The notes beneath the pieces were generated by a model that ran no database searches, was not told the origin of the DNA, and saw only the letters and a program-made list of their open reading frames with translations. A program made the translations under genes and the position numbers. Source: Thermoproteota archaeon (GTDB lineage Archaea; Thermoproteota; Methanomethylicia; Methanomethylicales; Methanomethylicaceae). Taken from it: DNA of 64,000 nucleotides. The stretch spans positions 1-64,000 of the forward strand of contig JAJHRG010000001.1 in NCBI GenBank assembly GCA_020832905.1, given 5' to 3'. Below are positions 16,765 through 21,600 of this stretch, one piece after another (position 1 is the first letter of the stretch; every line of letters starts with the position of its first letter).

Positions 16765-17820
16765 TTAAAAAATTAATTGGTTTAATAAATATTTTGCATT
16801 TTCATTTTTTTCAAAATACTCTCTTACATTAGATAACATTTTTATTAATTCAATTGCTACAAAATTCTTTAAATCTAATGGATGTAATTCTCCCTTAGAA
16901 TACATAGATATTAATTCATTTACTGATCCTATTGTTATATCTCCTCCATATTTCTTAGGTCGTTCTATTACTACTTCTTTATTTTCATAAAAAATAATTT
17001 TTCTTGCAATTTCCATTACTGGATTTCCTTCAACTTCTTTTGGAGGACAATATGCTTTATTTATTTTATTTTTTATTTCCTCTGGAGAATCATGAATAAA
17101 AATACAAGTTTCAGGTTTTGATTTACTCATTTTATATTCTACTATTTTTTCTTCAGAATCCATTCTTCCAGAACCTTGTAGACTAGGTAATATAGGTGTA
17201 TGAATTGCAATTGGTTTTTTGTAATGATATTTTTCTGCTATTTCTCTAGCTAATACATGTGCTCTTCTTTGATCCATTCCACCAAGACAAATATCTAAAT
17301 CTAAATAGAAAATATCTTCAACTTGCATACAAGGATAAATAAGTTTTGAAAAATCCATAATTGTTTCATCTTCTTTTCTTCCCATTATTGTAACAGCTCT
17401 TTTTACTCTTGAAAGAGTTAAAGATTTTGCAATTCTTAATACTCCTTCCCAATACTTCCTATCTTCTATAAGAGAATCTGCTTTAATAAAAGTAATTTTT
17501 GAAATATCTACATTTAATGCTTTAAGACAATGCTCTATATATTCAGCACACATATTGATTTTTTTGATATCTCCATTAAATTTATCATTTATCCAAGCAT
17601 GCCATGTAGCTTCTAAAAATATCATTTTTACTCCTACATTCATTAAATCTTTTAGTTTATTTACCCATATAATCCAACCAATATGAAATAATCCTGATGG
17701 TTCAACACCTATATATCCTTTTGGTGATGAGTTTGTTTCAAATAATACTTTAAGATCTTCTTTTGTTATTATTTCTTCAGTATTTCTTGTTACAATATCT
17801 AATTTTGTCATTAAGTCCAA
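16765..17820 (-). CDS. tyrS: tyrosyl-tRNA synthetase
   Basis: A 351-residue class I synthetase of the archaeal/eukaryal TyrRS type. The HIGH-like motif is HIGW (about residue 42, within EPSGLFHIGWI), and the KMSKS motif is YKMSKSKPE (about residues 228-236). Active-site features LGGMDQRRAHVLAREIAEKY and YPCMQVEDIF are characteristic of TyrRS rather than TrpRS. It charges tRNA-Tyr with tyrosine. The start at 17820 (MDLMTKLDIV) could also be the ATG at 17811. Upstream lies the long RNA-containing gap. Confidence 0.93.
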   Translation of the reverse strand: MDLMTKLDIVTRNTEEIITKEDLKVLFETNSSPKGYIGVEPSGLFHIGWIIWVNKLKDLMNVGVKMIFLEATWHAWINDKFNGDIKKINMCAEYIEHCLKALNVDISKITFIKADSLIEDRKYWEGVLRIAKSLTLSRVKRAVTIMGRKEDETIMDFSKLIYPCMQVEDIFYLDLDICLGGMDQRRAHVLAREIAEKYHYKKPIAIHTPILPSLQGSGRMDSEEKIVEYKMSKSKPETCIFIHDSPEEIKNKINKAYCPPKEVEGNPVMEIARKIIFYENKEVVIERPKKYGGDITIGSVNELISMYSKGELHPLDLKNFVAIELIKMLSNVREYFEKNENAKYLLNQLIF

Positions 17821-18243: not shown

Positions 18244-18345
18244 GCAGACTGCTGTGTATCCCGATGCTAACACTCAACATCATCGAAGGACATTTCGTCC
18301 TACTCTGTTGAGCTCTCTCCCATCGGGAATTATCCAGCAGTCTGC
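18244..18345 (-). ncRNA. H/ACA guide sRNA with an extra outer helix
   Basis: The minus strand folds into a single-hairpin archaeal H/ACA RNA. Lower stem TCCCGATG/CATCGGGA (18328-18321 with 18266-18259) encloses a pocket with arms GGAGAGAG and TGTTAG. Upper stem CTCAACA/TGTTGAG is topped by a k-turn: tandem GA/GA, three-base bulge GAT, and C-stem GTAGGAC/GTCCTTC with one U-U mismatch. The box ACA (18257-18255) lies exactly 15 nt after the upper stem, matching the known 14-16 nt rule. Unusually, the unit sits inside a perfect 11-bp helix GCAGACTGCTG/CAGCAGTCTGC. A TATA-like TTTAAATA lies about 34 nt upstream. The arms predict a target CUAACA-UN-CUCUCUCC or part of it. Confidence 0.82.
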
Positions 18346-18420
18346 CAATAATATTAATAAATAAGAAGTAATATTTAAATATAAATTCATTAGTTGATTT
18401 TTTATCTAAAAATTATTGTT

Positions 18421-18489
18421 GCGGGTGTGGGTTAAGCCTTGTTCATTGCTAAGCTTACGCCTTTGCTCACTCGGCCCCTGAGCACCCGC
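18421..18489 (-). ncRNA. structured RNA of unknown class (three-stem fold)
   Basis: A GC-rich island of 69 bp in AT-rich DNA. Ends GCGGGTG and CACCCGC pair, an internal TAAGC/GCTTA pairing (18433-18437 with 18453-18457) and a hairpin GCTCA/TGAGC (18465-18469 with 18479-18483) give a three-stem shape on either strand. The minus strand is favoured: it follows pheT by 20 bp, ends with ACA three bases beyond the closing stem, and is followed by TTTTT. An H/ACA-like pocket can be drawn but no k-turn is seen. It could instead be the 3' end structure of the pheST transcript. No known family was recognised. Confidence 0.5.
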
Positions 18490-18509
18490 AATAATTTATA
18501 TTTAATTAG

Positions 18510-20156
18510 CTAGTAAATAAGCTTACTTATATTACACTCAAAAGCACCTACTGGAAATTCTAGTCCAAAGTTTACTAAAACTCTAGGAGAAATTTCACCT
18601 ACAACACCAATTGATTCATTATTTAAAATTATTTCAGCAGCTCTACCTTCTATAAATGGAGGTCTATTATATGGTTTAAAACTTATACTTTTTGAAAGTG
18701 CCTTAAATAAAGCTACAACTATTGCTTGTATATCTTCATAACTTACTTTGTAATCACTAATAGCAGCAGCTAAATGAGTAGAAATTTTTGCAATTCCATT
18801 TTCTACATATACAACATCACCATATTCAAATATTTTCTGTGGATATGGCTCATGTATATTATAGCTTAAAAACTGTAATAATTTTGGTAATAAACAATCT
18901 CTTAAAATCTCATATTCTGATGATACTGGATTTACTAATTCTACAAATTCTCTTTTTCCTAGTAAAGATTTTTCCTCCATTACTGATTTGCTACTTAACA
19001 TATATGTAATAACTTCTTGAAAGCCCATTCCTATCATGATATCTCTAATTAACTTTCTTACTTTACTTTCTTTAAGTAATTTTCCTGTAGTAAAAATCTT
19101 TGGTATTTCTGGTTTAATATTATCTAAGCCAATTGCCATAGCAATATCTTCAACTAAATCAATTTCATGAAGTATATCTACTCTATATGGAGGAGAAATA
19201 ACAATAATTTCATTATTATTTATCTCCTTAACTTCATGACCCATTTTATTTAAAAGAAATATAGCATCATTTAAATTAATATTTATTCCAAGAACATTAT
19301 TAATTGTTGATAATTTAAGAGAAGTAATAGTATAATTAAGTTTTGGTGTTCTTTCTATTCTATTATTATAATGAATATCAACATATTGAAAATCTCCTCC
19401 TCTTTCTAATATTGAAGTTACTATTACATTTAAACAAATATTTATAGTATTTTCATCAGTTCCTGTAATATCTATAAATAAATTTCTTGTATTTGTAGTA
19501 ATCTTTGTATTTTCACTATTTATAATTGGAGGCATAGAAAGAACAGTATTGTTAGAATCATAAAGTAATGGGAATTTATTTTTATCCTTTATTATCCATC
19601 CATACTCTTTTCCCTTAGTAGTTTTACTTAGTATTTCATAACCATTCATTACTTCAGAATATCCTAATGGTATGAATTTTATATCATTTGGATGAAAAGC
19701 TGAATAATAAATAGGAGGAGAAATCTTATCTAAATCATATATACCAATAGATGCTTTTCTTCTATTAGATCCATAAGTATTATGAAGTTTTTCTTGAAGT
19801 TGCATTATTTGTACTATTGCCTCTTCATCTAATTCAATATTTCTTATAATTGCACCTACAATATATGGTCTAATTGATTCTACAGATGAATCTACAAATA
19901 ATTTAATAGATCCAGGTAATGGATCTTTTAATTTCCATTTATTACCATAGTAAATTCTTATTCCACGTGCAATTCCTTCACTACTAAAGAAATCAGCTCT
20001 ATCAGATGTTATTTCTAGTGTTATTCTATCTCCAATTACTTCTTCTATTTCACACTTTAATTTAGGTAATACATCTATTATTTCTTCATTACTTATATTC
20101 ATTTTTAATATTTTCCTTAAATCACTAATACTTATGTTAATCTTTGGCAATCTCAT
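18510..20156 (-). CDS. pheT: phenylalanyl-tRNA synthetase beta subunit
   Basis: The beta chain of heterotetrameric PheRS, 548 residues from the chosen start, the size of the archaeal type. It has a B1-like start (LPKINISISDLRKIL), a B3/B4 editing region (YGSNRRKASIGIYDLDKI), a B5 DNA-binding-like domain (INLNDAIFLLNKMGHEV, PPYRVDILHEIDLVEDIAMA) and the C-terminal catalytic-like fold. ATG at 20156 (MRLPKIN) was chosen because it follows GGGGGT and matches family starts; the frame stays open to 20219. It overlaps pheS by 20 bases, so the two subunits are translationally coupled. Confidence 0.95.
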   Translation of the reverse strand: MRLPKINISISDLRKILKMNISNEEIIDVLPKLKCEIEEVIGDRITLEITSDRADFFSSEGIARGIRIYYGNKWKLKDPLPGSIKLFVDSSVESIRPYIVGAIIRNIELDEEAIVQIMQLQEKLHNTYGSNRRKASIGIYDLDKISPPIYYSAFHPNDIKFIPLGYSEVMNGYEILSKTTKGKEYGWIIKDKNKFPLLYDSNNTVLSMPPIINSENTKITTNTRNLFIDITGTDENTINICLNVIVTSILERGGDFQYVDIHYNNRIERTPKLNYTITSLKLSTINNVLGININLNDAIFLLNKMGHEVKEINNNEIIVISPPYRVDILHEIDLVEDIAMAIGLDNIKPEIPKIFTTGKLLKESKVRKLIRDIMIGMGFQEVITYMLSSKSVMEEKSLLGKREFVELVNPVSSEYEILRDCLLPKLLQFLSYNIHEPYPQKIFEYGDVVYVENGIAKISTHLAAAISDYKVSYEDIQAIVVALFKALSKSISFKPYNRPPFIEGRAAEIILNNESIGVVGEISPRVLVNFGLEFPVGAFECNISKLIY

Positions 20157-21600
20157 ACCCCCATTCTCTAAGTTTTTTAAGACTATGTGTATGAAGCTCT
20201 CTAATATCATCAATTCCAAGTTTTATCATAGCTAATCTATCTATTCCAAATGCCCATGCAATTACAGGAAAATCTATTCCTAATGGCTTAGTTACTTCAG
20301 GTCTAAAAAGACCTGCTCCTAGACATTCTATCCATCCTAATTTTGGATGTTTAATATAAGCTTCTATACTTGGTTCTGTAAATGGAAAATAACTAGGCTT
20401 GAATTTTATTTCTTTAAATCCAAGTTGATTTGCAAACTCAATAAGAATACCAAGTAAATGTCTAATATTAATTCCATAATCTCCTATTATTCCTTCTAAT
20501 TGACAAAATTCAATCATATGTTTTGAATCAATAACATCTGGTCTAAAAACTTTAGATAAACAAAACATCTTTACAGGAGGATTTTTTCTATTATAAAGAA
20601 ATCTTACAGAAACAGCTGTTGTTTGACTTCTTAATATTGGACGACTTGCTATTTCTCTACTCCAATTATATCTCCATCCTCTTGATCCAGTAGATCCACC
20701 ATTTTCATGAGTTCTTTTTACATTTAATATTAATTCTTCTGGTGCATCTATTACTGGTAATACTCCTTTTACTTGAAAACTATCATGAAGTGTTCTTGCT
20801 GGATGATCCTGAGCTTGAAAAAGTACGTCAAAATTCCAAAATTCACTTTCAACATAAGGACCTTTTGCTTCCTCAAAACCCATACTTACTAATATTTCCT
20901 TTACTTCTTCTAAAAATTCTAAATATGGATGTTTTTTTCCAATAAAAATTACTGGTGGAGAAGCTGTTACATCATAAGGAGGAATTAAAACTTCTTTCCA
21001 TTTTCCACTTTTTATTATATCAGATGTTAGAACTTTTACTACTTGATAAGAAGGTGTATAATCCTTTATTAATTCAATAAAAAGAGATTTTGTTACTTTC
21101 TTTTTAATTAATCCTCTTTTTTCTAATTCAGGTAATTTATTTAATTCATCTGGTGTTAATGAGGTTCCTTCATATAATTTTTTTAATATTAAATCTAAAG
21201 TTGGAGGTTCTTTCTTTTTTAATATTATTTTTCTTGATTTTTTATCAATTTCAAAAACACCAGTTTGTTTTCCCCATCCTATTGCAGCTGCAATTTCTTT
21301 TTCACTTAAAAATTTCTTAATATAATCAATATCTATAGCTTCTGAAGAAAGAAGCATTTTATAAATTCTTGTTTCTGGAAGTCCATTTATTAAGCAATTT
21401 TTACCTTCTTCTGTTAATTCATAAGATTCTCTTATCAATTCTTTTGTAATAACATAACCTTTTTCCTCTAATAGTTTAGATATTGGAAAAATAGAAGAAA
21501 TTGGTTCATTTAACTTATTTGATATGGTTTCTGCATCTGCTTTTCCTCCTAATTTCTTTAAAGCTTCAATAAGCTTAATTTCTGATTGACTTAAAGCCAT
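20137..21600 (-). CDS. pheS: phenylalanyl-tRNA synthetase alpha subunit
   Basis: A 487-residue archaeal/eukaryal-type PheRS alpha subunit. The N-terminal ~220 residues hold winged-helix DNA/RNA-binding domains (EIKLIEALKKLGGKADAETI, EKGYVITKEL). The class II catalytic core shows motif 2-like VFRPDVIDSKHMIEFCQLEG and motif 3 GIDRLAMIKLGIDDIR near the C-terminus. It activates phenylalanine with the PheT partner. Spacing to coaD upstream is 10 bp; AGGTGATAC precedes its ATG. The order coaD-pheS-pheT suggests a single transcript. Confidence 0.96.
   Translation of the reverse strand: MALSQSEIKLIEALKKLGGKADAETISNKLNEPISSIFPISKLLEEKGYVITKELIRESYELTEEGKNCLINGLPETRIYKMLLSSEAIDIDYIKKFLSEKEIAAAIGWGKQTGVFEIDKKSRKIILKKKEPPTLDLILKKLYEGTSLTPDELNKLPELEKRGLIKKKVTKSLFIELIKDYTPSYQVVKVLTSDIIKSGKWKEVLIPPYDVTASPPVIFIGKKHPYLEFLEEVKEILVSMGFEEAKGPYVESEFWNFDVLFQAQDHPARTLHDSFQVKGVLPVIDAPEELILNVKRTHENGGSTGSRGWRYNWSREIASRPILRSQTTAVSVRFLYNRKNPPVKMFCLSKVFRPDVIDSKHMIEFCQLEGIIGDYGINIRHLLGILIEFANQLGFKEIKFKPSYFPFTEPSIEAYIKHPKLGWIECLGAGLFRPEVTKPLGIDFPVIAWAFGIDRLAMIKLGIDDIRELHTHSLKKLREWGYEIAKD

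Follow-up and report, generated by a model that had tools for sequence, protein, structure and literature searches.

The usual description of H/ACA RNAs has them end just past the ACA box. Among described systems, the closest to the RNA considered here (RNA2) is the third hairpin of HgcG, known also as Pab40 and Pf7 (Rfam RF00064, with Af4.3 and Haloferax Hvo2), which guides U1915 of helix 69 in 23S rRNA (E. coli numbering throughout; P. abyssi L2016) (PMC2584109, PMC4652768); in the HgcG consensus we read the arm GGGUUA as pairing with UGACCC and the arm GUUAC with UAAC, both around that residue. Orthologs of RNA2 match the profile of this hairpin, and RNA2 shares with it the 3′ arm GUUA, the k-turn and helix 69 as predicted target region, but RNA2 is a separate RNA, whereas Pab40.3 shares one RNA with two further hairpins; the 5′ arm of Pab40.3, GGGUUA, fits U1915, while that of RNA2, GAGA, fits U1921; and the RF00064 model has no helix past the ACA, whereas RNA2 is enclosed in an outer helix. 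Pyrobac-1 (RF01722), listed as a candidate structured RNA of Pyrobaculum (PMC2864571), has the same upper stem and k-turn region, a Baldrarchaeum ortholog of RNA2 scoring 36.1 bits (cut-off 40), but its 60-nt model stops within the hairpin and lacks the outer helix. Nanoarchaeum equitans likewise has two H/ACA hairpins near its tyrosyl-tRNA synthetase gene, but both lie in one RNA with only ACA between them, and the text covered describes no enclosing helix (PMC3491384). Yeast snR3 resembles RNA2 by predicted target position: it guides 25S Ψ2264 in helix 69, the positional equivalent of the U1921 predicted for RNA2 (PMC8307265), but is a two-hairpin eukaryotic snoRNA without a k-turn. No earlier account of the outer helix came to light in the literature covered, which is partial, the papers on Pyrobaculum sR201–sR210, in subscription journals, lying outside it.

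The minus strand of the window (the whole 64,000-nucleotide stretch analysed) carries at 18345–18244 a canonical archaeal H/ACA hairpin with k-turn and ACA, of fold type 10/5/9, set inside this outer helix (Table 1); the kind to which this RNA belongs is already known. The predicted minimum free energy is −53.1 kcal/mol, against −25.3 (s.d. 3.25) for shuffled sequences (z = −8.6; 0 of 200 as good). Lower stem, pocket and upper stem follow one another in the usual order, and the k-turn, built from GA at 18305–18304, GA at 18281–18280 and the three-base bulge GAU at 18284–18282, places its GA/GA pairs 10 layers from the pocket: GCUCAACA plus GA makes up the 10 layers, the G·U closing pair included, invariant in 17 sequences, with a 3′ guide of 5 nt, which by the published layer-count rule is the productive 10/5/9 fold (PMC4652768). 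The distance from the pocket-closing G·U pair to the ACA is 14 nt, or 15 nt, the figure given in the preliminary description, if that pair is left uncounted; both values fall inside the published range of 14–16 nt. Around the hairpin, GCAGACUGCUG and CAGCAGUCUGC form 11 perfect base pairs, a twelfth, G·U, being possible, and between this helix and the lower stem a junction loop sets GAUAAUU against AUACA, with the ACA box within the latter. The earlier proposal of an archaeal H/ACA guide RNA on this strand is thus borne out by fold, k-turn, ACA and covariation, its guide role being predicted from sequence, and the extra 11-bp helix that it placed around the hairpin, with the 3′ strand directly after the ACA, is exact in the sequence.

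Table 1. Features of RNA2 and its surroundings (positions in the window unless another genome is named)
Feature	Position	Strand	Remarks
TATA-like TTAAATA	18372..18378	-	~26 nt upstream of outer helix start; putative promoter
Outer helix, 5′ strand GCAGACUGCUG	18335..18345	-	perfect pairing with 18244–18254; near predicted transcript start
Junction loop, 5′ side GAUAAUU	18328..18334	-	GAYAnnn in Methanomethylicaceae (alignment A1)
Lower stem, 5′ strand CCCGAUG	18321..18327	-	fold and covariation
5′ guide arm GGAGAGA	18314..18320	-	AGA and next G pair with 23S U1923–U1926
Upper stem, 5′ strand GCUCAACA	18306..18313	-	fold and covariation
k-turn and apical stem-loop	18280..18305	-	fold; alignments A1, A4
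Upper stem, 3′ strand UGUUGAGU	18272..18279	-	fold and covariation
3′ guide arm GUUAG	18267..18271	-	pairs with 23S C1916–C1920, CUGAC
Lower stem, 3′ strand CAUCGGG	18260..18266	-	fold and covariation
ACA box	18255..18257	-	invariant in alignment A1
Outer helix, 3′ strand CAGCAGUCUGC	18244..18254	-	first base directly after ACA
RNA1, second H/ACA RNA	18411..18497	-	lower stem GCGGGUG/CACCCGC; ACA 18419–18417; short A-U outer helix
pheT, phenylalanine–tRNA ligase beta	18510..20219	-	upstream neighbour; NCBIfam TIGR00471, E 1.4e-168
tyrS, tyrosine–tRNA ligase	16765..17820	-	downstream neighbour; NCBIfam NF006330, E 1.7e-140
Helix-69 guide copies in genome G157	G157:C1:204626-204696 (L339); G157:C1:1066759-1066829 (L365)		AAGAGA and GGGUCA types of 5′ arm

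The gene order is pheS–pheT–RNA1–RNA2–tyrS–dnaG, with genes assigned by NCBIfam. The best relatives of RNA2 come from Candidatus Methanomethylicota (Verstraetearchaeota) genomes, the closest being 95% identical across the RNA, and tyrS, pheT or dnaG adjoin its orthologs in several distant families too, which argues for deep orthology. Since the element stands close to the tyrS start in most of Methanomethylicaceae, and mRNAs can be regulated by L7Ae via their k-turns (PMC5539422), it might be read as a structured, cis-regulatory tyrS leader, perhaps acting via L7Ae on the k-turn, and not as a guide RNA. We consider this very improbable: dnaG is the downstream gene at one locus (L010), near many distant orthologs there is neither a tyrS nor a pheT match, and conservation is among the highest in the guide arms, which match helix 69, and in the ACA.

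At curated Rfam thresholds neither RNA1 nor RNA2 is detected in the window, and the low-threshold matches there look like chance. Orthologs of RNA2 do match hairpin III of RF00064 (model positions 199–268), below the gathering score, with E values from 2.4e-10 (L206) to 0.2, while the window's own copy gives no match. Judged by these profile similarities, the inner hairpin probably belongs with HgcG/Pab40 hairpin III as its ortholog, resembling Pyrobac-1 as well, and is not a new hairpin.

The outer helix bears the marks of selection. Across 17 Methanomethylicota sequences (alignment A1), 98.9% of its cells are paired, and eight of its 11 pairs have changed on both sides, one pair never varying; when the strands are slid against each other, 35–51% of the whole structure pairs, against 95% in register. 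Compensatory change in the stems and conservation of the ACA and k-turn across relatives, both named beforehand as tests of the proposal, were accordingly looked for and found. For a wider survey we used a model of the inner hairpin only (R2), with no flank modelled, to lessen search bias toward the outer helix, although some of the 23 sequences from which it was built had first been found with a helix-containing model. R2 gave a match in 162 of 398 Thermoproteota genomes. Taking the best uninterrupted helix near the ACA, with per-locus shuffles as the null, at least 7 perfect base pairs were present in 60% of the 114 R2 matches outside Methanomethylicaceae, against 7% of shuffles, and at least 9 in 33%, against 1%. 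Cross-family pairing of flanks was dropped as a null, because lineages share GC-rich flanks and the comparison is uninformative.

Counting Methanomethylicaceae, 28 of 40 families have at least one outer helix of 7 bp or longer, and Asgard loci (L169 and L171 from Baldrarchaeota, L172 from Odinarchaeota) carry one of 10–12 bp. Families f20, f22 and f17 and part of f11 lack the helix or have a short one, so H/ACA function does not need it everywhere: it is common, not universal, and present in most of the Thermoproteota and Asgard orthologs examined. Nor is it peculiar to RNA2, for the neighbouring RNA1 is enclosed likewise. In the window's genome the outer helix of RNA1 has about six A-U pairs, but in most relatives it has about 10 bp and is richer in G-C, and eight of the nine pairs of its main run are doubly changed; by inspection, the loop between outer helix and lower stem follows, across much of the family, one pattern in both RNAs (5′ GAYAnn, 3′ ACA), and a Baldrarchaeum locus appears to hold both RNAs, each enclosed. 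A functionless inverted repeat, arisen by chance or terminator-like, is hardly a credible reading of the helix: UUUAUUAUUUU does come after its 3′ strand in the window, but that U-run is missing from most relatives, the helix is found across Thermoproteota and Asgard archaea, and the strong covariation in both neighbouring RNAs contradicts the reading. On this comparative evidence we regard the outer helix as real, ancient and conserved under selection.

What the helix does can be approached from where it begins. TTAAATA or a close variant stands 22–26 nt before it in nearly all Methanomethylicaceae, the intervening sequence being poorly conserved, so transcription is predicted to start at or near the helix, and the 5′ strand of the helix would form the transcript's 5′ end. 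The helix would then join that end to the sequence directly 3′ of the ACA and act as a constitutive terminal stem, fixing and shielding both RNA ends, while the junction loop would present the ACA to the PUA domain of Cbf5. Holding and protecting the ends is most likely its role, and its conservation suggests that the mature RNA does not end shortly after the ACA.

The preliminary description had left open whether the helix is a processing stem or part of a larger RNA; the helix itself has stood, and the first of these readings is kept as a rival. An endonuclease cutting in or beside a transient stem could free the guide from an RNA2–tyrS transcript, leaving a mature end just after the ACA. 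In most Methanomethylicaceae the tyrS start follows shortly after RNA2 with no terminator visible, so that a 3′ end has to be made, and archaeal pre-rRNAs employ such stems. Yet the outer helix, an uninterrupted 11 bp, contains by inspection no bulge-helix-bulge motif (two 3-nt bulges around 4 bp), the U-rich run after its 3′ strand makes termination possible in the window, and a helix that starts at the predicted transcription start leaves a 5′ trimming stem unnecessary. That last point leads us to prefer the constitutive terminal stem; a processing stem seems unlikely, though worth keeping in mind.

We turn to what RNA2 might modify. The target first proposed from its arms, CUAACA-UN-CUCUCUCC, is absent from the organism's own 16S, 23S and 5S rRNA and was dropped, but in the corrected 10/5/9 register the arms GUUAG and GGAGAGA fit CUGAC-U1921-C-UCUU in 23S helix 69, which here reads GUAACUCUGACUCUCUUAAGG. 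GUUAG pairs with CUGAC (1916–1920, one G·U) and GAGA with UCUU (1923–1926, one G·U), 5 + 4 bp in total, and U1921-C1922 supplies the UN, so that RNA2, with Cbf5, Nop10, L7Ae and Gar1, would guide pseudouridylation of U1921. Among 94 orthologs parsed by script (a further 36 were unparsed, 24 of them from f10 and f32, where C1926 is seen), 88 pair unbroken on both sides of U1921, with 4–5 bp on the 3′ arm and 3–6 bp on the 5′ arm.

Three signs of co-evolution point the same way. The 3′ arm base facing G1918 is only ever U or C, both able to pair with G; genomes with C1926 carry G opposite it, where others have mostly G or A, and arms of the Desulfurococcales-like type, UUAAGA, match UCUUAA over their full length; and 54 of 131 U1921 genomes have the RNA but none of 41 C1921 genomes does (p = 1.5e-8, a value that ignores relatedness). 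Family f11 repeats the pattern on a smaller scale, with the RNA in 13 of 13 genomes outside genus g85 and in none of five within it, C1921 being seen in three. The C1921 genomes thus offer a case of a guide missing wherever its target uridine is missing.

Three observations weigh against U1921. In the window's genome the 5′ duplex has just 4 bp, one of them a wobble, and is weaker than productive Pyrococcus duplexes; the 3′ arm GAUCG of families f4, f8 and f9 misfits the site; and for the orthologous Pab40.3 the target that has been validated is U1915, 6 nt away. RNA2 might guide U1915, and perhaps U1917, as Pab40.3 and the second Haloferax hairpin do, with bulged bases in the target duplex: the orthology favours this, the 3′ arm GUUA pairs with UAAC 1911–1914, and extra unpaired target residues are allowed in the Haloferax models (PMC4652768). 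By complementarity alone, however, U1915 is disfavoured as the main target, since in each of the 94 parsed orthologs the 5′ duplex in that register stops at a single pair. GUCAG arms would moreover lose the A1912 pair, the absence of the RNA from C1921 genomes would go unexplained, and genome G157 holds two paralogous helix-69 guides, one with a 5′ arm of AAGAGA type (U1921) and one of GGGUCA type (U1915). We therefore think U1915 improbable. U1921, a target not previously assigned to this RNA, is the most likely on complementarity and co-occurrence, and its modification is predicted. Taken whole, RNA2 is probably a single-hairpin H/ACA sRNA, orthologous to HgcG/Pab40 hairpin III, that guides U1921 and has the outer helix as a constitutive terminal stem.

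In the families with the GAUCG arm (f4, f8 and f9; L155–L160 and L162), the lower stem extends into the pocket; the target may have changed there, or the pocket may be closed without a substrate.

More tentatively, the TACK and Asgard archaea may possess an H/ACA class with a terminal helix closing directly after the ACA, together with a helix-69 guide that fits U1921 and not U1915. If so, Cbf5 would read the ACA inside a two-stem junction and not from a free 3′ end, and the helix-69 guide of these archaea would fit a position that eukaryotes also modify, unlike the U1915 of Pyrococcus. A helix that starts at the base after the ACA in both Thermoproteota and Asgard archaea raises the question of how Cbf5 recognises the ACA, and its conservation that of how archaeal guide RNAs acquire their ends; the predicted Ψ at U1921 is a concrete, testable site in TACK and Asgard ribosomes.

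For RNA1, whose 3′ guide UAACCCA is invariant, a scan of the 16S, 23S and 5S rRNAs of five genomes gave no consistent target site; an early, strong-looking 5S match was dropped, as its arms were unsupported by the alignment and it did not recur. The organism's own 16S rRNA (L115 1501–3184) is 1684 nt long against about 1498 in relatives, through an AT-rich insertion of about 186 nt that is probably an intron. At Bathyarchaeia-like loci (L183, L184, L188 and others), a sequence ending in GGGACA stands immediately 5′ of the RNA2 outer helix and looks like a second H/ACA hairpin abutting RNA2. In most Methanomethylicaceae (L003–L009 and L011), though not in the window's genus, a conserved GUGCGAUGAAGUGGGAGCUGAGC stands before RNA1 and resembles a box C/D-type k-turn with which the RNA1 transcript would begin.
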